Source: Nymphaea colorata (Eukaryota > Streptophyta > Magnoliopsida > Nymphaeales > Nymphaeaceae). From it: a DNA stretch of 64,000 bases. A program made the position numbers and the translations under genes. Location: NCBI RefSeq assembly GCF_008831285.2, contig NC_045150.1:8072001-8136000 (forward strand), read 5' to 3'. The notes under the pieces were generated by a model that ran no database searches, had not been told where the DNA came from, and saw nothing but the letters and a program-made list of their open reading frames with translations. Below are positions 3,103 through 37,599 of this stretch, piece by piece. Within the stretch, counting starts at the first letter, position 1. Every line of letters begins with the position of its first letter.

Positions 3103-6100
3103 CTCTTTCAATTTTTCAGGGCCTACATTGACCAGTTCTTCTGCAGTGTCGTAATAATCAAGATCAATTAGAGGTTCAATCATAAAAAGTTGTCCATTTT
3201 CTACACCATTGTTTTCCCAACCTCGCACCTTATTATCTTCCCATTGCTCTTCAAATTCCGTCTCAACCTACCAAACACCAACAGAATTAATAGATTACAG
3301 TCCAGAGAAGCACAGGCAAAGAATAAAGAGCATATGAATGTCTCATCAGCAACATCATGGTTCTCTCTCTATAATTTCCAAATTAATTTGTGATTATGAA
3401 TACATGCTCAACTGATTTGGCCATTTATAAAATTGTGACAGCTCAGGCAAAACCAAAGAATTAAATAAGCCAGGCAAAAACCATATTCCATTGATACAGT
3501 GATTACTGTTCCTTGCCTCAACCTCACAGAAACGTAATTACAGGAAGGATTGAATGCAGACTAAAACTAGAAAAAAAGGAAATGAACATAAAGAAGAAAA
3601 GCAATGAGGGCTAGATGTTCATTAATCAATTTTCAACTATCATAAAACGTCCCCTTGAATAAGGCATCCTAATCAATTTGGATCTGTGGATCCAAGACAA
3701 AATAAATGGATAAATAAGGGTCCAAACTAAATAACTTAACCAAACAACTAAAAGTGGATCCACTCTAAGATGCAGACTAAATAGATCAGGCCTGCGCCGA
3801 CAACCCCCCACCCCCCCAACACACGCACACAAAATCCTCTTTACTGAAAGGTAAATTAAATAGAACTGTGATAAGAGAAGTACCACCAGAATTATAAAAT
3901 GTACTAAAAAGCACAAACCTAGCTAACCATTTCCAGTTTGTAGCACCAATTGCATTCATATGACATGCTACAAGCATACCTTCGAAAAAATTCTGTTGAG
4001 ATCCTGTAAAGGCTCTGTTCGCTGAAAGAAAGAGATGAGATACTCTAACATGTGCGTTAGATAGTCTTTATATTGCCTGCAGAAATAAATGACAATTAGA
4101 ATAACATTCCTTCTGCAAATGCTAATCAGACAATTGTCTGCTTTTTATGCATCCAGCAGAAGCAAACTGTCTGAAGTCTGCATACAGTTGGCATCTCAAA
4201 TTGTCAAAAAGAATGATCTAGATGATCACCTTGTCAACTTCAAATCCCTCGGTATATCATGAGTTTGTGGAAAGATGTCCAAGTAAGCAGAATATTCCAC
4301 AACCTTTGCGAACTTAGAATTAACAAATTCATTATACAACTCATGCAAGTCCAGGTAGCGACCAAAAGCTTCCTGAGAAAATAAGTAACACATTCTAAAT
4401 ACCATGAGATCTTGAGAATACAAGAGAAGGACAAAAGCAAGTAACAATAACTATGGTAAACAAATCATTCTTCCCAGTAAGCTTAAACATCCATCATGAT
4501 ACAACCCACACAATATTTTTCACATTGTGAAACTTTCCAAACCATCTTCATCATATGCTTCAAACTTCAAACAAACTCACAGCAAACAAAAACATAAAAA
4601 TCCTGCTATATATACCACTTTCAGTTCAAACAATTACTAATTATATATGTGAATATGACATAAGCTAGAAATTACAGTGAACCTAATTTCTGTTTAGTAA
4701 AACATAATGGCCTCCTACAATGCACTGGTAGGATCCTGGCCTTATTTGTGAAACGGCTCTTAGAACAGCTGATGCATCCTCTTAAGTCCAGTTCTAAGCC
4801 TGAATGCCATACACCATCTTTACAAGCCCAAATTATTACAACTTGATATTTCCTGGTTCATGTTCTAAAATTACAAATCAAAAGTTAAGTCTCATTTCTT
4901 TGCGCTGGAGAAAATGGAAATTACTTGATTTCCCATGATTCACAATTCACATAACTTGGAACCAACTTTAGGCATCAGTTATGGTCCACATTGACAAACA
5001 CCATTGCATAGGGATGTAAAATGTTCAAACATAAATCAGTTAAATGCATGAGAAATGGGATCTAAATTGGACATGCTACAGCTTGAAAAACAAAATCCCA
5101 AAAACCATTTATGAAATGTCTGAATTCCTATTAACTTACATATGTGTTCATTACTCTTTTAGCATCATGAATGGAAGAGAATACTACTAGCTATATTGTC
5201 AAGGCGCCCAGGCAGCGTGCCTATTACCTATGCAAAAGAAGCGACCCATTTTTTTTTTTTAGTTATGTTAACCGTTACATAATAAAATTATGCACTTACT
5301 GACTGAACTGTAAGCTTCTATTCAAAGTAAAACTTGAAAAACCGTTTTGTTCTTTTCTAATTGAATGATTGCACTTTGTAAGTAAAGCCAAAAAGTAAAA
5401 CATGAAAAGCTATTCTGTTCTTGTTTACAAGACAGACTAACAGTACATTTTCAGCTTGTTTACATGCTGGAAAACTGTGCTGTTCTGTTCTAGCTGATGC
5501 CTTAGTCTGATACACAAAACAAGACACATCATTGTTGTTTACATACTGGACACGATGCTTGCATTTCTTATAGACTATTTCACTTATAGACCTTATAGAT
5601 TATTTCATTTGAATCATTTCAGACAAAAATCGTATCCAATCAGTACATATAATATACATTACAAGTTTACAACAGATTGTACATATAACATATAATATAC
5701 ATTATGACAGATTATACATATATGATATAACAGATTGTACAAATCAGTACATTATAATATACATTATAACAGATTCAACTGCAGATGCAACCACTTTAAA
5801 AATTGCTTCAGATAATCAGATTTACTAATATACATATATAGCACATTAATTTACAATATGTAAATATACATTATTTTTTATTGTACATATATTATACATT
5901 ATAACATATTGTACATAGTATATACAATAAAATCACAGGCATATACCTTCCCATGGACTAGGCGTGCTCGCGCCTAGTCCAGCCTAGGTGCCAGCCTAGA
6001 TGCCAGCACCACACCCATAGCCTAAGTGATGGACTTAGGCAACAAGTGTGGAAGCGACGCCTTAACAACAAAGAATACTAGTATGAAAAAATATCAATCT

Positions 6101-22777: not shown

Positions 22778-23499
22778 AGAGAGAGAGAGAGAGATGGAAG
22801 GGGGGAGAGGGGCGCAGAACCACAACCATTGTCCTTAATTTGCAGGAGATCACCTTGAGTCTCTTTAGCTCAATGCTGACCAACATATAATACCCATGAG
22901 AATCGAACCTGAGACTTGTATGTGCTGCACTATGTTACAGACAAATTAGAGAGAGAGAGAGAGAGAGAGATGGAAGGGGGGAGAGGAGCGCGCAACCACA
23001 ACCATTGTTCTTAATTCGCAGGACATCACATTGAGTCTCTTTAGCTCAATGCTGACCAACATACAATACCCATGAGAATCGAACCTGAGACTTGTAAGTA
23101 CTGCATGTCCAACCAACTGTGCTATAGACAAGTTAGAGAGAGAGAGAGAGAGATGGAAGAGGGGAGAGAGGTGCACAACCACAACCGTTGTCCTAACTCT
23201 GCAGGACATCACCTTGAGTCTCTTTAGCTCAATACCAACCAGCATACAATACCTATGAGAATCGAACCTAAAACTTGTACATGCTGAAGGACCAACCAAC
23301 TATGCTACAGACAAGTTAGAGAGAGAGAGAGATGGAAGGGGGAGAGAGGGGCGCTCAACCACAACTGTTGTGTTAATCTGCAGGACATCATCTTGAGTCT
23401 CTTTAGCTCAATGCCAACCAACATATAATCCCCATGAGAATCGAACCTGAGACTTGTACTATCCTACAGACAAGTTAGAGAGAGAGAGAGAGAGAGAGG
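22778..23499 (-). mobile_element. Four head-to-tail tRNA-derived SINE-like units separated by GA runs
   Basis: The GA runs at 22778-22794, 22948-22970, 23135-23153, 23318-23332 and 23477-23499 delimit four units of 159-187 bp. On the minus strand, units 2 and 3 carry a pol III A-box-like TAGCAYAGTTGG (complement at 23113-23124 and 23296-23307). All four carry a B-box-like GGTTCGATTC (complement at 22900-22909, 23076-23085, 23259-23268, 23438-23447), about 35 bases downstream of the A box where both exist. A shared non-tRNA body and a CT tail follow, which is SINE architecture. Units 1 and 4 have lost the A box. No tRNA-like folding of the full unit is claimed. Confidence 0.6.
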
Positions 23500-26400
23500 A
23501 TGGTGAAATGAGGACAGGTTTGGTAGATATAGTTTGACAAATCCATAAAACCGCAGAAGCTACTAATCTTGTTTGTGTTTGGACCACAATGACACCGACT
23601 TCCTTTTGTTCCACCCATCGTCGTTATTCAGGTCCACTGCTTCTAAGAAGAAAAATATCAACTAAGAATGTTGTCTAAAGTGGACGTCGACTCGAACGAG
23701 CCTCGGGATTTTATCAGATGCCTCCAACAGACTGCATGCCCAGGCGGCTCCACAAAGGAAGTGGGTACGGTGGCAAGCTGGATAGACAAATATCTGACAA
23801 AACGTTAAATTAGCATACTTGATAGGTTGGAGAACATAATGTAGAATATGCAACCCCTCCAACCCCAACCACTCAGGAGAAAAATACCAGAAAGAAACGA
23901 TAAATTACTAGTAGTAGAAATCGGAGATCCCTTTAGGGTGCGTTTGCATGGCTGAGACGGAGTATCTCACATGTATTTTTTGGGACACTTTGTCTTAGCC
24001 ATATGTGATGTTCATTGAAACACACCCAAGATTTTACAATCTTTTTCAGAGTAACCGAAAATTTTAGGCTACATTTGCACCCTATGGGCAGGGCCCTTAA
24101 ATGAAATGCCAGGATTGTTTGATGGTAATGACGTTTCGTGAGTGTGCCATAAATCTACTCAAATATAAATATTAAAACAGATACATAAAACACTAGAACT
24201 AATGTTCCACGAACTTAAACCCAATTTTTAAAACTAATTCAAGGAACATTCACAAAATATTTCTGTTGCCAAATGATTTTTCAGGGATTGTTTGACATTA
24301 CCAATACTACTATCTTATGAATCTATCCTAAAAAACGAGTCAAGTTCAGGAAACACTTTTAAAAGTGTCTAATGAATCTAACCAATTTTGGGGTTAGGTA
24401 CATCAGACAATAACATAATGTTATCATTCGCCGTTTAGAGTATTTTGATAGCAAGGACACTTATTGAGTGTCTCATGATTTTGCCTCAAAAATAGAAGTA
24501 GGTTTATGTAACAATAGTTTTAGTGTTCGATAAACCTACAACCTTTTGATCTTTTACTGTGAAATTATCCTTTTAAGGATATCTAGTAACAAGAACACTG
24601 TATTAGTATTCTATAAATTTGTTTCACTCTTTATAATAGATTCATAACAAGCTACTCGAACAGTTAACCAAACACCATCCTTCTAACAGCGTGTATCCTA
24701 TCGTGTCTCAAACATGCCCTATTCCGGGCAACTTCATGACCTTGGGCCCTGTGTGAACATAGATTCACTCTACTCATCCACTTGTGTACATAATTGCACC
24801 AAATTGGATAGCTTGCTTTATATATTTATATATATATAAGAGAGAGAGAGAGAGATGGCTCTATAAGGAGAGTAAGCAACAAACAAATCGATGCATAAAA
24901 GGATAGTGCAATGATATGGGCCTTTGAATTTTTATGATATATCTTGAATTAAGCCTTATCCTTATTTTTTATGTACGGGATTTAGTAGTAGGGCCAATTT
25001 GTCTCGAGTCAGCGTATATATTACCAGAATTCGAAATGAGAAACCGAGAGAGTTATTCAATTTTATATTGCATGCGCTTGTTCTATTGGCTTTGTTCTTA
25101 GCTGTTAGGGGTGCATAAGCATGTGAAGGCGCATGTCATGATATCGACACGTCCAATCAAGGGGAATCCATTTTCAATCCAATTGGCGAAATCTAAATAC
25201 GATACGACATGACACCGTGAACAACATACGCTTGCCATCTTTGAAATTAATGCCTGGAAAGTATAGAAAATGCTATTTGCGATGTGTCTAAATACAAACG
25301 GGTCAATTTAGAGAGAGAGATGATGGTGATATAAAACTGATCAACATGATTCTGTCTTGGATAGTTATCCAGATAGGGACGTGTTTGTTTTTTACTTCAT
25401 CAATATCTATGGATCGGAAAATGAGACTACTCAATCAACAACGGCAGAGCCAAAAAAATTTACAAGGCTAAATTAAAGTTTTTAAATTTTGACAATGATT
25501 GAAATATATTTTTTCAAAATTTTTACATAAAACAAGTGTTTTTTTTTTTAATTTACATGTAAATGGGCCCGAGCCCAAGCGAACCCTACCTTGGCTCCAC
25601 CCTCTATACCCAATAATATGGATATAAGGCAATTATCCTTTATCTTGACGAAAAAGAAAAGCAAAAAAAAAAAAAACAAAGAAATTCAAATGAAGGATGA
25701 AACAAAATTGGCTTACGAGTCTTGAGGTCATGATGAAATTTAACAGTGGAGTGCATATCTATCTCCAAGCGCATTCTCGACGCACACCTATTTCAGAAAA
25801 CCTTGACAAAGAGGAACCATTAGCTGATTTGCCGTAATCATTTTCTTCTCCATCCAGAGTGTACCTACATATGGGGGCAGCTAAGAAACACAACACTCCT
25901 TGAAGAAGTTAAAGTCCAAATTTCAAAGTAATTGGAACATTTTAAGTGGAATTTTCTCGCTGGTTACAATAACAATTGTTTTATGAATCTGTTTAAAAAC
26001 TCACAAACTTTTTATTATGGTGTTTTATGAATCTACTATATAAAACGTTGAGGCAAATTTATAGAATAATAACAAACAAACGTACCCCAAGGGATCATTT
26101 GGCAACGAAGCCTCAAGGAACTCAATGTGTGGAGCATAAATCAACAAGGCTAGGGTTTGACAAGTTGGAAGAGGTCAGCGGCTCGTGAACACATCCGTCG
26201 CCGTAAACTGATAAGAACAGTGTTGTCTGTATCGGCCTTGATAAAGCAACACACCCGCCAACATCGGTCAGTGTCTGTCTTTTTCTATTACAAAGTAATT
26301 AGAAGTATTTGTTTTTGAAAACTATATGTGATGAGTGAGCGACGATGTGAGCATGACCATATAATATACTGGATAAGAGTCGATGGGCCCTTCTCTAGCT

Positions 26401-26573
26401 TTTTCTTTCTCCAATTAAAACCAATATATCTCCAACACATCCTCCATTTAAATCTTGGAAGATGCTATCTTAATGATATTGAAGAATGTTGAGATTGGAG
26501 ATTAGAGGTGTCATTATGGAGGCTAAGTAGACCGGTTCGTGTTCTTGTCCCTCTCTCTTTCGATTATCTCCTC

Positions 26574-26610
<37 letters not shown>

Positions 26611-27031
26611 AACAAACACATATTGTACTAATTGACTTTCATAAGGTTGTCTCTCCCCCTCTCTTCATCTCTTAATTAACATTCTTTGAAAATGTTCATA
26701 AGTAAAACTTCAATTTTCAAAATGTTAGAAGGGCGATGGTCCAAGGATGTTACAAGAGCCAAATTATAATTTCTTGAAAGTTTTTTTATTGGTAAAACTT
26801 TAATTTTCAAAAATGTCAGAGGGGTGATGGCCCCTACCGGCGCCCTTGGCCCTGTCCCTGCTCTCTCCCATCAAAAGATTCCAAGTGTTACTTAAATCAA
26901 ACATCCCAATGGATTTTATATTGGATTTTGGAATCAAAATTGATCTGAGGGGAGAGTGGCGGAAGTAGGTGCGGGCATGCGTTGCCAGCGGCTCCCGAAG
27001 GCCCCCTTCATTTTAAGGTGTGAGCATAGAC

Positions 27032-27212
27032 CAGGGGCGGAGCCGCATGTGGGCATGTGTGGGCATTTGCTCACACAACCTAATAAACATCTCTTGTTTG
27101 TATAATGGTTAACCCCAAACTTTTACATACTTACACATAAAATGATAAAATATCCTTCAAATATATGGTGAGGTGAGTGCCGCTTAACTAAATATGTCTT
27201 GCTCAGCCACTG
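27032..27212. mobile_element. hAT-like miniature element
   Basis: 181 bp beginning CAGGGGCGGAGCC and ending GCTCAGCCACTG, inverted at the ends. The 8 bases outside each end are GCATAGAC and ACGTAGAC (6 of 8 identical), consistent with the 8-bp target duplication of hAT elements. There is no coding capacity. Similar termini occur at 37600-37773. Confidence 0.55.
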
Positions 27213-28107
27213 ACGTAGACCAGTTAATAATTGAGATGGCTCTGCCAAACCTGTTGATACTGCCCCACAGCTAATTTTTTTTTTTTAATTTCTGATCACT
27301 CTACGACTGGTCACAAGTGGCACAAATCTGATCTTCTATGCCTTCATCTGAATGTCACTCTTCATCACAATGCATCGGCTCACCGGCGAGCTTACGACAC
27401 ACTGCATTTACAAGAGCATCGTTTGGCCGACCAAGTGTCCGTACGACTGGGAAGAACACTTGACTCGGGTGATTGGTTTTTGTTTTACCACCAATAATCA
27501 GGTGGTGCCAATTTCTCTTCTGAAGAAATGCACGTGATCGCTGTCGAACGTGGAAGAACTGTTGGTTCTTGTCTGGATCCGACTTTCTCTGCAACATTTT
27601 TTTTCTTCCAATTTTCTGGATGGACAAGATCATGAGGCTTGGTGGATCTGAAAATTTTAATTTTACATCTCCTAAAATTGTTGCCGAAGTTCTCGTTTCT
27701 GGATTAATGGTTGAAAACTTCACACACGCATACACTTAAATATCCGAGTTTTCACGGGCCTTTCAATGCTTAATTTTGTGTAGCATGCAAAGTTCTAGAA
27801 TCAGATTATGCCTCTAATATGTTATTGGTTGGATTCATTTGTATCCTTAATGATCTGTGAATTGCACAGTGAAGATCCTTGCGGTCAGTCGCGTTAATAT
27901 ATCATTGGAGTATTGTACTCTAATTTTGAAAGCATATTTATCATATTCAATCTTTTAGATGCTTTAATTAATGGTGAATTCAATGGCTTAATATTAATTG
28001 TGAAAGGTGGTTAATCTATCAAATCGGCAACACTTTTGCAAGTCATTATTTCTACGTCTGTTCATGTTATTCACATCTTTAAGCTTCTAGAGGCATGCCT
28101 CACATAA

Positions 28108-28274
28108 GAAGGTGTTTCGCTACAATAACAGCTCATTAATGTCTCACAAATCTGTTTCAAAGATTGAGGCAGATTCATGGAACACTGCATGACGACAATT
28201 CAATGAATTTACCTTAAGTTTTGGGACAGATTCATGAAACAATAAACAACATGTTATTGTTACCAAACAGCTCC
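28108..28274. mobile_element. Tourist-like (PIF/Harbinger) miniature element
   Basis: 167 bp with inverted ends GAAGGTGTTTCGCTACAATA and, from the other side, GGAGCTGTTTGGTAACAATA. It is flanked on both sides by TAA, the target duplication expected for Tourist elements. The interior carries CAGATTCATGGAACACT-type sequence shared with its relatives here. Confidence 0.65.
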
Positions 28275-28997
28275 TAAAGTAACATAGCCAGGTAAACGGA
28301 TTTAGTTATGTTTGAGAAGATCTTACCATCCAAATCCTGTCCATTCACATCAAATTGTGAGCTGAGCATTTGCTTGTATGGATCGACTCAGTTGGATTAT
28401 ACCATAATGTAGGACATTCAAGATTGATTAATTCATCGATTCCTTTATTTTGAGCTGCTTGCTAGGTGATTAACTTTTTAATGGGTAAGGACCAACTTTT
28501 TACTTCATTGTCATCAACTTTTGGAGGATTGAGATCAGTTTCATTTGTATTTTACATGTGCAACATTACAAAGAAAAACGTGATTCTTTTCCTTCCTTTT
28601 TAATCTTGCATGGGAGAGTTACCACTAGTTGGTGTAGCAGTAATTGATTAATGAAGTAGAATCTCAAGGAGGATCGTCCAGATGTGGAAGGGATATGCTA
28701 ATTTACTAGTCACATCAGATTTCATGAACTCTTGAGCACAGGCATCAAATTTCATCAGATTCATTGACTAGCACATGCCTTGTTTTCGAACAGCTGTGGT
28801 AATGATTCAAGCTGTAAGTGTGAATGTTAACAATGAGCAGAAACTGTCTTTCATTGTGAGAGCAGGGGTTGTTGTTAGACCGTGTGCGAACGAACTAAGC
28901 TATGCTGAAGTAGCTTGGCATCTTCTATACATGGTCAAACATATTCAGGGGGAAATTGCATGGTTTTGGACCTGTTTTATCACCAGGGCGTGCATAT

Positions 28998-30703
28998 AAC
29001 CAGCTTTCGCCTAAGCGGCGGCGCTACACTAGAAGATGAAGAAGGTCATTACTCGGATATGGGCAGAAGGAATGGGATTCTTGCCTCTTAACAGTAGACT
29101 CTCAACGGCGCGTGTGTTCAAGGATAACCCAGCTGCGACCGACCAAGGAAGGAACGACCGAGGGACACAGCAGTCGAATGGATCTACTAACTATCCAGCT
29201 TTCAGGAAGATTTTTGTTTCGCCTAAGCGGCGGCGCTACACTAGAAGATGAAGAAGGTCATTACTCGGATATGGGCAGAAGGAATGGGATTCTTGCCTCT
29301 TAACAGTAGACTCTCAACGGCGCGTGTGTTCAAGGATAACCCAGCTGCGACCGACCAAGGAAGGAACGACCGAGGGACACAGCAGTCGAATGGATCTACT
29401 AACTATCCAGCTTTCAGGAATATTTTTGTTTCGCCTAAGCGGCGGCGCTACACTAGAAGATGAAGAAGGTCATTACTCGGATCTGGGCAGAAGGAATGAG
29501 ATTCTTGCCTCTTAACAGTAGACTCTCAACGGCACGTGTGTTCAAGGATAACCCAGCTGCGACCGACCAAGGAAGGAACGACCGAGGGACACAGCAGTCG
29601 AATGGATCTACTAACTATCCAGCTTTCAGGAATATTTTTGTTTCGCCTAAGCGGCGGCGCTACACTAGAAGATGAAGAAGGTCATTACTCGGATCTGGGC
29701 AGAAGGAATGGGATTCTTGCCTCTTAACAGTAGACTCTCAACGGCGCGTGTGTTCAAGGATAACCCAGCTGCGACCGACCAAGGAAGGAACGACCGAGGG
29801 ACACAGCAGTCGAATGGATCTACTAACTATCCAGCTTTCAGGAATATTTTTGTTTCGCCTAAGCGGCTGCGCTACACTAGAAGATGAAGAAGGTCATTAC
29901 TCGGATCTGGGCAGAAGGAATGAGATTCTTGCCTCTTAACAGTAGACTCTCAACGGCGCGTGTGTTCAAGGATAACCCAGCTGCGACCGACCAAGGAAGG
30001 AACGACCGAGGGACACAGCAGTCGAATGGATCTACTAACTATCCAGCTTTCAGGAATATTTTTGTTTCGCCTAAGCGGCGGCGCTACACTAGAAGATGAA
30101 GAAGGTCATTACTCGGATCTGGGCAGAAGGAATGAGATTCTTGCCTCTTAACAGTAGACTCTCAACGGCACGTGTGTTCAAGGATAACCCAGCTGCGACC
30201 GACCAAGGAAGGAACGACCGTGGGACACAGCAGTCGAATGGATCTACTAACTATCCAGCTTTCAGGAATATTTTTGTTTCGCCTGCGGCGGCGCTACACT
30301 AGAAGATGAAGAAGGTCATTACTCGGATCTGGGCAGAAGGAATGGGATTCTTGCCTCTTAACAGTAGACTCTCAACGGCGCGTGTGTTCAAGGATAACCC
30401 AGCTGCGACCAACCAAGGAAGGAACGACCGAGGGACACAGCAGTCGAATGGATCTACTAACTATCCAGCTTTCAAGAATATTTTTGTTTCGCCTAAGCGG
30501 CGGCGCTACACTAGAAGATGAAGAAGGTCATTACTCGGATCTGGGCAGAAGGAATGGGATTCTTGCCTCTTAACAAGAGACTCTCAACGGTGCGTGTGTT
30601 CAAGGATAACCCCGCTGCGACCGGCCAAGGAAGAAACGACCGAGGGACACAGCAGTCGATTGGATCTACTAACTCTCCAGCTCTCAGGAATATTTTTGTT
30701 CCT
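28998..30703. repeat. 212-bp tandem array, eight copies
   Basis: Taking ATGAAGAAGG as the phase marker, copies start at 29036, 29248, 29460, 29672, 29884, 30096, 30306 and 30518. The period is 212 bp, except for one 210-bp copy that lost two bases in GCCTAAGCGG. A partial copy precedes the first. The inner copies are almost identical, while the last is the most diverged, the pattern expected from unequal exchange. Copies 3, 5 and 6 share GAGATTC in place of GGGATTC, and copies 3 and 6 also share CACGTG. The array is clearly richer in G and C than its AT-rich surroundings. Each copy holds a 71-codon and a 63-codon open frame on the plus strand. No known satellite or gene family is recognised. 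Confidence 0.9.
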
Positions 30704-31018
30704 GATTGGTGTTAATACTGATGTATATACAGATAATCTTTATATTTTCTGTAAATTCATTTTTTGCAATACAAATGGTGTGGAAGCCCACTTTCTCAGC
30801 AGCTATGGCTGTACCATGAGTCGAGCCAACGAGCTCAGACTCGTTTTTTAAATGAGTTAAGCTCGAGCTTATAAACGTGTCGAGTTCAAGTCATATAAAC
30901 TCTACTCAATTAAAATCGAGTAAAACTCGTTTAATCTTGGTCTTCTTTTTTGCAATTTTTAAACTTAAAACGATGAAAAGTTGGTAAACGAGTTGAGCTC
31001 GAGCCAATTAAGCACTAT

Positions 31019-34514: not shown

Positions 34515-36970
34515 GAGAAAGAGAAATAGAGAGATAAAAGACAAAGAGAGAAAGTAATTGTGTATCTTGACAGGCAAAGAGAAAGGCAAACCCTATAAAG
34601 TATGAGAGCCTACCCGAGTGGTGCTGCCAATACCTGGACTGACCTGGCCCAAACTTGCATGCACATCGCAAGACCGAGTCAAGCGATTGGTACCCAATTC
34701 GACCCAGCCCGCATTTCACTCATGTGGCCTCAGCCTAGCTCATTTCAGGCTTGAAATCCAACTATCTATCAGATACCCACCCAGCTTGATGTCTATCCTT
34801 GCAGGCAAGGGGAAAGGGAGAAGGTGGAGGACTTTGGCTCTTTCTCGAGTGGGTTGTCTATCTTCTCGCTCTGCCAAATTAGGGTTTGGCTATTAGATGT
34901 GCAGACATAGTTGTAAGCTTGGGATATTATCCCTTTCAAAAGCTGAAACAAAATATACCAACCCACCTAAGGGAAAAGGAAAAACAGGGGCTCATGAGAA
35001 CCATGGTGAAGCAACATACGACATTTTATGCCTTCCCCATGGTCTCTCCTTCAATCTCTAGCTCCCCAGTGACCACAAGCTTCCTGAAAATCACTGTAAA
35101 GCAAGGAGTTTCATTCTTTAGACAGAACAAAACACGACCAATCTAAAGTGACGAACACATGTGCATACCTTTTCCTTCGGCTTCTTGGTAGCTTCCTTTG
35201 TAATGTCATGACAACCACTCGACGAATAAAAGATAACCTCTATTTAAACTGAGCCCCCCTCAATTGGAAAGGACAGCTTCCCAACCATGAATCCTTCAAA
35301 CTTAATTGAAATTAAATAAGATAAACTTCGTCTTACCGCACCTTTGACAATTTTGTGGCCTACGTTTCCCCTTGTTTGTACTTGCACAATTCTCAAGGTG
35401 TCAACAGGCATTGTTTAAAATAACATTACCACCCTTATCTCAAAGATTAAATCGACATAAAATAAAAGTTTTAAAAATTAAATGTGATTTAATTAGGACT
35501 AATCACGGAATCTAAGTGTGCTACTCACGGACCAAGAGAGCTGTCCCCTCAACTTAACGCCATCAAGATCCGCAATTGGGACCCCTCGTGTTTTTTTTTT
35601 TTTTTTTTAAACTCACAATACAACCATTAAAACATTATTATATATATAGTTTAAATGGATGGGATTTAATTAAAACTAGTTACAGAATCTAAGGCGAAAA
35701 GCTAAACTTAATGCCATATAAAATCCAAGAGCGGGACCCCTCGATTTTTTTTTACTCATAATACGGGTAAAATGTGCCAGGTGTCTAGAGATTCGCCGCC
35801 TGAATTGTCTCCTTACCAACCAACCCATATTGTGCATGTCGGTAGCGCTACCTAAGCTACTCATGAAAGGCCCTTCACAGTTTGCTTTTCCATTGCACCA
35901 AGAGGCACATATCTCTCCTATTAAATTTTGGATATATCTTTAAAAGACTCAATTATTCTCTGTTCTTTGTTTTTTTGGTGGGTAGCATTGGGAAAAGAAG
36001 TTTGAAGATCCCTTTTTCTCTGGTTCTCATCTACGTGAGACTTGGGTGAGATATGTTGCAATCTCACAATTTCCAGCTATATTATACCCCTTACACCTAA
36101 TGTCTTTTATTTTTTTGGGTGAACGATAGGTTCATCCACTGCTCGAAACAAGGCCCGAAGATCCTTCATTCCCTCTGCCTTTGAGGTCATGAGCTGCGTC
36201 GGTGACAGCGATAGTAACAGTGCATCCTTCAACTTGAATGTCGCGATCTACCACCTTAAGACACATGAACATAAAGACCACAAGAATCAAACTAGAAACA
36301 TACTTTTATGTAGACCCCTAACCCGACCAACTATGCTATGCCCCTTGAGGCATGTTCTCTATGTATTATAACTAAATTAACAAGAAAAAAACAACATCTT
36401 GATCACATATTTTCTTAAGGAATAACCTTTTAACATTCTTATTGAAGGAAAACAAGAAGGCCCTTTAAATTCCATCATTTGGCAACCAAGTGATAGCCAG
36501 AGTACCCCAGTTGTCCCAAAGGGTGTAGTGCAACTAGCTTGGATCAGCAACTGGTCTCACTTCCATTGGCAAGGGTGCAGTCTCTTGTTCTAAAACACCG
36601 ACACAAGCCATTACTAGAGAAGCAAAGGAAATAGCTTTGGGTGTTTGTACACAGGCAAACAATAATATAGTCCGTCTCTATTAGCAGAACAAGAAAAATT
36701 TATTGGAGGATATATATTTAAGATTCTTATTTAAAAATAATTTTTTTTAAAAAAACAGATATGAACAACTGCCTATACCAGTCACAACGTGGCTACGCCA
36801 CGGTCTATTTTAGCAACGTAAGGGCCAACTTGGCATTGCACCATGGTACCCACTAACTAATTACAAAATCTGATGATCTTACTAGCTACGTGGTTACTAA
36901 TATTATTTTACTGTTTACTTAACTCTCAAAGATCTGCCTAAGATCCTCCGCCTGTTTCCCTTCTTCCTTT

Positions 36971-37105
36971 CTCATTAGTTGAAAGCCCCTTCTTGAATAT
37001 TCAGGCCAACTGTTTCTCATTAGTTGAAAGCCCCTTCTTGAATATTCAGGCCAACTGTTTCTCATTAGTTGAAAGCCCCTTCTTGAATATTCAGGCCAAC
37101 TGTTT
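36971..37105. repeat. 45-bp repeat, three perfect copies
   Basis: The unit beginning CTCATTAGTTGAAAGCCCC occurs at 36971, 37016 and 37061 with no mismatch. The copies are contiguous with no unique spacers. Confidence 0.95.
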
Positions 37106-37599
37106 CTCTTTCTTGTTTGTTTTTTTAATGGTCCACTTGTGTATTTTCGCGTAGAGGTGTACGGTTGACACGAATATTCAAGTTACGTCACAAAAAGGAG
37201 AGACATGACCAGAGGCCAGTTGCCATATCAATTCTGTAATTCAGAAATCAACTGTAATGAACTATTATTCTACTTTCTACAGTCCCACACGACATCTCAA
37301 TACCTCCAAAAGCAAAAGTATATGGACCCCTCATAAAGATAATCTTAAAGTAAGGAGCTTTGCAAAGCACCTTATTATTTAGTCTACCACACTTTTTTTT
37401 TCCCTCTTTATTTAGGAATATAAAGGACTTGCAAGACAATTAGAACCCAATGAGCCTAGTGTCGGGTGAGCAAAAAGAACATCTCATGGCCTCAGTGTGA
37501 GAGGTCGAAACCTCTTCCTTTCTATTTCTTAGCATCTAGGGTTGCATTGGTACCTCGCTTATGTAAATTGTGGAGTGATCTCTACGTTGAAGTTGGTCC

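Follow-up and report, generated by a model that had tools for sequence, protein, structure and literature searches.

An eight-copy 212-bp tandem array in Nymphaea colorata and its probable origin in the tail of a dead LINE

What is a tandem array whose reading frames are chained end to end, and where does it come from? The question is raised by positions 29005-30703 of a 64,000-nucleotide stretch of Nymphaea colorata DNA (contig NC_045150.1, 8,072,001 to 8,136,000), called here the window; positions refer to it unless a locus is named. An earlier note had described the array as unrecognised and had offered a young satellite, a repeated regulatory module or a source of structured or small RNA as possible roles. 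We conclude that it is very probably a young, in-place tandem expansion of a 212-bp piece of a dead L1-like non-LTR LINE.

The array itself is certainly beyond chance. On the plus strand, 29005-30703 consists of eight head-to-tail copies of a 212-bp unit, and Tandem Repeats Finder returns 29005-30700 with a period of 212, 8.0 copies and 97% matches. The motif ATGAAGAAGGTC recurs at 29036, 29248, 29460, 29672, 29884, 30096, 30306 and 30518, with five spacings of 212 followed by one of 210 and one of 212. The eight copies and the period of 212 reported earlier are real, except that one copy is 210 bp long, copy 7 having lost 2 bp where it begins (CCTAAGCGG to CCTGCGG, about 30285). Apparent changes of copy 7 at columns 2-10 of the copy table are this one deletion, and they inflate the distances of copy 7; the 18 substitutions listed between copies 8 and 7 are inflated too, the copy-7 boundary having been set 2 bases off. 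Any two of copies 1-6 show 1-5 differences over the 212 sites, 2.7 on average (1.3%), and copy 8 differs from them by 9-12 substitutions. Two variant sites are common to copies 3 and 6, and copy 5 has one of them; such sharing is expected from the exchange of blocks of units. A composition unlike the surroundings, also claimed earlier, is borne out by a GC content of 0.496 in the array against 0.389 in the window. The features of the locus are as follows.

28772..29004 (left limit approximate), plus strand: left single-copy LINE-tail remnant, ORF2 C-terminal coding (DNA and protein match to C12, protein search of the own genome)
28997..29008, plus strand: TAACCAGCTTTC, identical at 11 of 12 positions to TATCCAGCTTTC, which lies close to the unit's right end (local alignment)
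29005..30703, plus strand: eight-copy tandem array, GC 0.50 (Tandem Repeats Finder, motif spacing, copy comparison)
29036..29131 in copy 1, with a counterpart in each of the others, plus strand: 32-codon relic of the LINE ORF2 C-terminal frame (identity to C12 and C9)
30277..30486, plus strand: copy 7, 210 bp, with the 2-bp deletion that shortens the chained frames begun in copy 6
30487..30703, plus strand: copy 8, the most diverged, passing straight into the LINE 3' UTR (substitutions, homology to C12)
30704..30802, plus strand: right single-copy remnant, LINE 3' UTR (matches to C12 and to the C10 relative L030)

The reading frames are less regular than the earlier note had it, in which every copy held a 71-codon frame chained to the next by ATGA and every full copy a second frame of 63 codons. 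An ATG frame of 71 codons with the shared ATGA end is present in six of the eight copies (1-5 and 7), and six of the seven junctions in the array are chained. The frame of copy 6 has 68 codons because of the 2-bp deletion that opens copy 7, its stop ending at 30302 without overlap with the next ATG at 30306, and that of copy 8 has 65, with its stop in the right flank at 30715. The 63-codon frame is open in the same six copies, absent from copies 6 and 8, and starts with GTG only. Further complete ATG frames of at least 55 codons were found on neither strand of 29005-30703. When one monomer was shuffled 5000 times with its dinucleotides preserved and each shuffle repeated five times, 521 shuffles gave an ATG frame of at least 71 codons on either strand, and 208 gave a frame of at least 60 codons ending in an ATGA overlap; against chance, the chain of frames is unremarkable. 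Because 212 equals 3n-1, a frame open from one ATGA meets the next in the TGA phase, so that a single open stretch suffices for the whole chain. Chained frames in an array can therefore be the arithmetic outcome of a 3n-1 period, with no need for a coding role. Here the chain stems from the repeat length together with an old LINE frame and not from working genes.

The origin of that frame is found in the relatives of the array. Searched as DNA against the whole genome, the array returned itself and one other place, on contig C12, with 72% identity over 100 bp. Compared with 20-40 kb of the window, the C12 relative matches the unit and both single-copy flanks in the same order, with identities of 70.6% at 28852-28969 (E 4e-10 in that locus), 70-72% in the unit and 81% at 30684-30725; overall, 63% of the aligned bases (238/380) are identical to the window pieces. 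At the protein level, the left flank matches it over 35 residues (43%) and the copies are 56-59% identical to it. Copy 8 continues into 30704-30725, which is homologous to the C12 relative, and 30676-30712 is 81% identical to the C10 relative L030, to which 30773-30802 has a weak match in the same order (77%, E 0.5). About the last 30 bp of the left flank, at the left edge of the array, are not shared with relatives, and the GC-rich middle of the unit (about 29135-29190) aligns poorly with all of them. Beyond the LINE tail, 30804-30960 resembles a piece rich in GAGTCGAGC/GAGCTCGA that is also seen at 4346-4503 of locus L026 (sense).

An alignment of the window pieces with relatives from C12, C10, C9 and C11 and another C10 relative runs from a coding tail into a 3' UTR. 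Identity of the window to the relatives other than C12 is 39-52% of aligned bases, and since this DNA similarity is weak, protein matches carry the argument for a LINE tail. The left flank as a protein query of its own genome gave 10 matches at E<=1, itself among them, including C2 (5.4e-5), C9 (6.9e-5), C12 (0.001) and C10 (0.002). With the C12 piece as protein query, 18 matches were obtained at E<=10, among them C12 itself, the array and its left flank, together with divergent relatives in C9 (7.1e-5), C11 (7.0e-4) and C5 (0.0035) and further ones in C10 (three, 0.034-0.135) and C1 (1.84). The C9 relative holds both the left-flank part and the unit part in a single open frame of 142 amino acids. 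As a query, this frame found 46 matches at E<=1 on 14 contigs and 22 at E<=0.001 on 10 contigs, counts that include its own place and some overlapping matches. Its match to the window (28775-29131, E 4.8e-5, 35% identity) crosses the border between left flank and copy 1 without a change of phase and contains three stops; the relic frame of copy 1 has 36% amino-acid identity to the C9 tail. Between C12 and C9 the similarity is strong in one direction, as the C9 query reached C12 at E 0.55 only. Pfam gave no family for the tail, and a PDB search with it returned only a synthetic chain (E 0.5).

LINE parts are found upstream of the tail in several of its relatives. On the same strand, Pfam reports RVT_1 in L031 (E 3.3e-7; 30.7 bits, the cutoff being 29.6) and, in L041, zf-RVT (E 1.1e-15, above the cutoff); zf-RVT in L026 (2.1e-5) and L003 (1.4e-4) falls below the cutoff. 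With LINE pieces from L026, L031 and L041 as tblastn queries at E<=0.01, and excluding matches of the L041 query inside the tail, sense-strand LINE parts were detected upstream of the tail in 9 of 15 fetched relatives. Among the first nine fetched, five had them (L003, L026, L031, L032 and L041), each detected with a query from another locus, and none were found at this threshold in L027, L028, L029 and L030. Six further relatives (L042-L047) were picked from the E<=0.001 matches of the C9 query: upstream LINE parts are clear in L042 (best E 1.7e-14), L045 (1.3e-28) and L046 (6.5e-15) and weaker in L043 (1.2e-4), with none at E<=0.01 in L044 and L047, while the reversed sequences of these six gave 0 matches. 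Some of the loci are weak members of the tail family, namely L041 (E 0.076) and L031 (E 0.010) with the C9 query and L032 (E 1.84) with the C12 query. The six relatives in which no upstream LINE part was found fit truncated copies, but would equally fit a non-LINE family. In L041, zf-RVT is followed by a W..WKNRN stretch, which we take to be typical of plant LINE ORF2 ends, and then directly by the tail. The LINEs of this genome carry after zf-RVT a tail of about 140 residues (PWPSF ... RPW ... NPVxxVF) with no Pfam family, an example being L026 3359-3784, counted on the sense (minus) strand of that locus.

In the window itself, neither RT nor zf-RVT was found at 24000-29000 by tblastn with the LINE pieces, nor at 15000-36000 when compared with three LINE loci. 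The missing RT is consistent with 5' truncation, the window copy being a LINE remnant and not an element. As one of the 22 tail matches at E<=0.001, the segment would by its sequence be classed as a remnant of an L1-like LINE 3' tail. Homology links its flanks and unit to the tail found after zf-RVT in the LINEs of this genome, which are of the L1-like plant kind (RVT_1, PF00078; zf-RVT, PF13966); unlike such an element, it has no detectable RT or zf-RVT and contains an internal expansion. The relatives and their upstream LINE parts thus give the array, previously unrecognised, a source: its unit comes from a LINE 3' tail.

With a monomer and flanks that come from a transposable element and copies set head to tail, the array is a transposon-derived minisatellite or proto-satellite. 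The earlier note had proposed searching the same genome for the monomer, and this search places it at one locus: a unit-specific 32-mer, allowing up to 3 mismatches, occurs at 8 places in 407.8 Mb, all in the array, with 0 for the control. Eight copies at one locus, in an assembly that may collapse arrays, do not amount to satellite DNA proper; the young satellite suggested earlier is indeed young and local, but it is an eight-copy minisatellite or proto-satellite at a single place. The GC content of the array, which is above that of its surroundings, could be taken to mean that it is one local member of a repeat dispersed elsewhere, be it a satellite, an rDNA spacer or an organelle repeat. 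The 32-mer occurs nowhere else in the genome, however, and the flanks of the array match the LINE tail, which leaves this reading hardly any probability. An organelle origin had been the first guess from base composition and was dropped once the LINE relatives emerged.

Three other readings bear on function. In the first, the array would encode translated 71-aa peptides, coupled by stop and restart at ATGA or made from separate small ORFs. The 71-codon frame and its ATGA overlaps are kept in six of eight copies, and there is a coding signal: a comparison of copy 8 with the C12 relative over the first 32 codons counts 12 synonymous and 17 non-synonymous changes (dN/dS 0.24), with 3, 10 and 16 differences on first, second and third codon positions, and their identity in the relic frame is reached by 13 of 2000 random placements. 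This low ratio fits an ORF selected while the LINE was active, and as evidence for peptides it is countered by its restriction to aligned codons of the LINE ORF2 frame as it was before insertion. For the left flank against C12, dN/dS is 0.67 and 1308 of 2000 random placements reach the identity, a contrast with the relic frame that has no explanation here. Among the copies themselves, synonymous and non-synonymous changes number 5 and 11 over 60 codons, a ratio per site of 0.64 from few changes; the five other frames give 2-8 synonymous and 7-14 non-synonymous changes, ranges that include these values. No clear coding constraint is seen, at weak power, and the earlier caution that coding is not shown was well placed. 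The broken frame of copy 6, the frequency of equally long frames and ATGA chains among shuffled monomers and the lack of a Pfam family weigh against peptides as well, and to our knowledge a plant nucleus would not be expected to couple many units by stop and restart. We regard a chain of translated peptides as extremely improbable. The same slight chance is given to the idea that transcription and translation of the eightfold relic frame, with its start codon, yield a new 71-aa peptide; if true, the peptide would be a gene born from a transposon tail by tandem duplication, and the ATGA overlaps a by-product.

A regulatory role, as a G-box module or an enhancer of, for example, the glutamate synthase gene downstream, takes its support from two CACGTG cores and from glutamate synthase domains at 49.1-56.6 kb. 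The two perfect cores noted earlier are confirmed at 29533 and 30169, in copies 3 and 6, and both are one substitution, GCGCGTG to GCACGTG, common to these copies. With the core in two of eight copies only, and with 13 CACGTG in the window (both array sites included) against about 8.5 expected from base composition, the G-boxes are near background and arose within the array, so that they lend no support to a repeated regulatory module. The exons at 49.1-56.6 kb encode GATase_2, Glu_syn_central, Glu_synthase, GXGXG and Fer4_20 domains (Pfam) and belong to a gene whose extent, judged by eye, is roughly 44.9-59.7 kb and which resembles a plant NADH-GOGAT. Some 14 kb or more separate it from the array upstream, and this distance also tells against regulation, which we consider very unlikely. 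Apart from the frames of the array, 14 frames tested in 1-44 kb gave no Pfam family above cutoff, and a Pfam search of ten window frames likewise gave nothing above its cutoffs. The third reading, a source of structured or small RNA such as a repeat whose siRNAs keep the array itself silent, is unlikely, though less so than the others. In plants, siRNAs often target tandem repeats that derive from transposons, and by analogy the array could be such a target, which would not conflict with a LINE origin. For structured RNA the results point the other way: on the two strands the unit folds less well than shuffles (z +1.57 and +1.82; 194/200 and 193/200 shuffles fold at least as well), and Rfam at curated thresholds has no match in the window, which contradicts the structured RNA suggested in the earlier note. 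The array probably has no function.

For the LINE tail the following history is proposed. A truncated LINE copy, consisting of the ORF2 C-terminal tail and 3' UTR alone, would have sat at about 28.77-30.80 kb, with an ancestral single-copy length of about 0.55 kb and probably with its 5' part lost on insertion. In the first duplication, the ...TTTTTG(TT) of the 3' UTR would then have been linked to the TTTCGCC of the former coding tail, the microhomology being about 2 bp long: the unit junction runs from ...TTTTTG to TTTCGCC, and the right flank has TTTTTGTTCC, which gives about 2 bp in common. The short repeat TAWCCAGCTTTC near both unit ends perhaps aided this step. The local alignment score of TAACCAGCTTTC with TATCCAGCTTTC is reached by 12 of 1000 shuffles; at the left edge, TAACCAGCTTTC may be a repeat that helped the first duplication or the trace of a former copy 0. 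Later, the copies may have undergone unequal exchange or gene conversion, which brought the number to eight and homogenised the inner copies, leaving the outer copy 8 the most diverged. Each frame would begin as the 32-codon relic of the LINE frame and continue through the former 3' UTR. At a plant substitution rate of about 7e-9 per site and year, the 1.3% divergence would make the array of the order of one million years old. This age is rough, since each conversion between copies sets the clock back. GC-biased conversion inside the array is one possible cause of the high GC of the unit. GC stands at 0.50 in the unit, against 0.424 in the corresponding part of the C12 relative and 0.40 and 0.38 in two other relatives.

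The 140 kb around the C12 place have in common with the window only the LINE-tail segment and a few pieces of about 60-150 bp, which speaks against a duplication of the chromosome segment. Another source that had been considered was a host gene or exon, the C12 match at first resembling a paralogous exon with a splice-like CTTTCAG; it was dropped because these 140 kb share none of the glutamate synthase exons with the window and the family adjoins LINE parts.

Repeats born from transposable elements are described in PMC6947457, with LINE-1-derived PROsat of Phodopus roborovskii, CR1-C-derived chicken satellites and Gmr9/Ogre-associated soybean minisatellites as examples. As in these cases, a part of a retroelement appears here as the monomer of a head-to-tail array; unlike them, it does so at one place only and in eight copies. 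The route proposed there for minisatellites, by way of short flanking repeats and unequal exchange, resembles the history suggested above, although the same text finds in short flanking repeats no ready explanation for larger repeat units, a caveat that counts against the short-repeat step here. The plant rows seen in its table list LTR sources (maize CRM, soybean Gmr9), one barley SINE and one pea row (PMC6947457). In the present array the source is a LINE ORF2 tail and 3' UTR. With single-copy flanks on both sides, one locus, few copies and an unexpanded relative elsewhere, the array would offer a snapshot of the early birth of a tandem repeat from a dead transposon.

Other tandem repeats occur in the window. 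A second array at 22778-23458 has a period of about 183, 3.8 copies and AG runs. At 36968-37108 lies a perfect 45-bp repeat of 3.1 copies; 45 is divisible by three, and an 87-codon frame on the minus strand (36922-37182) spans the repeat.
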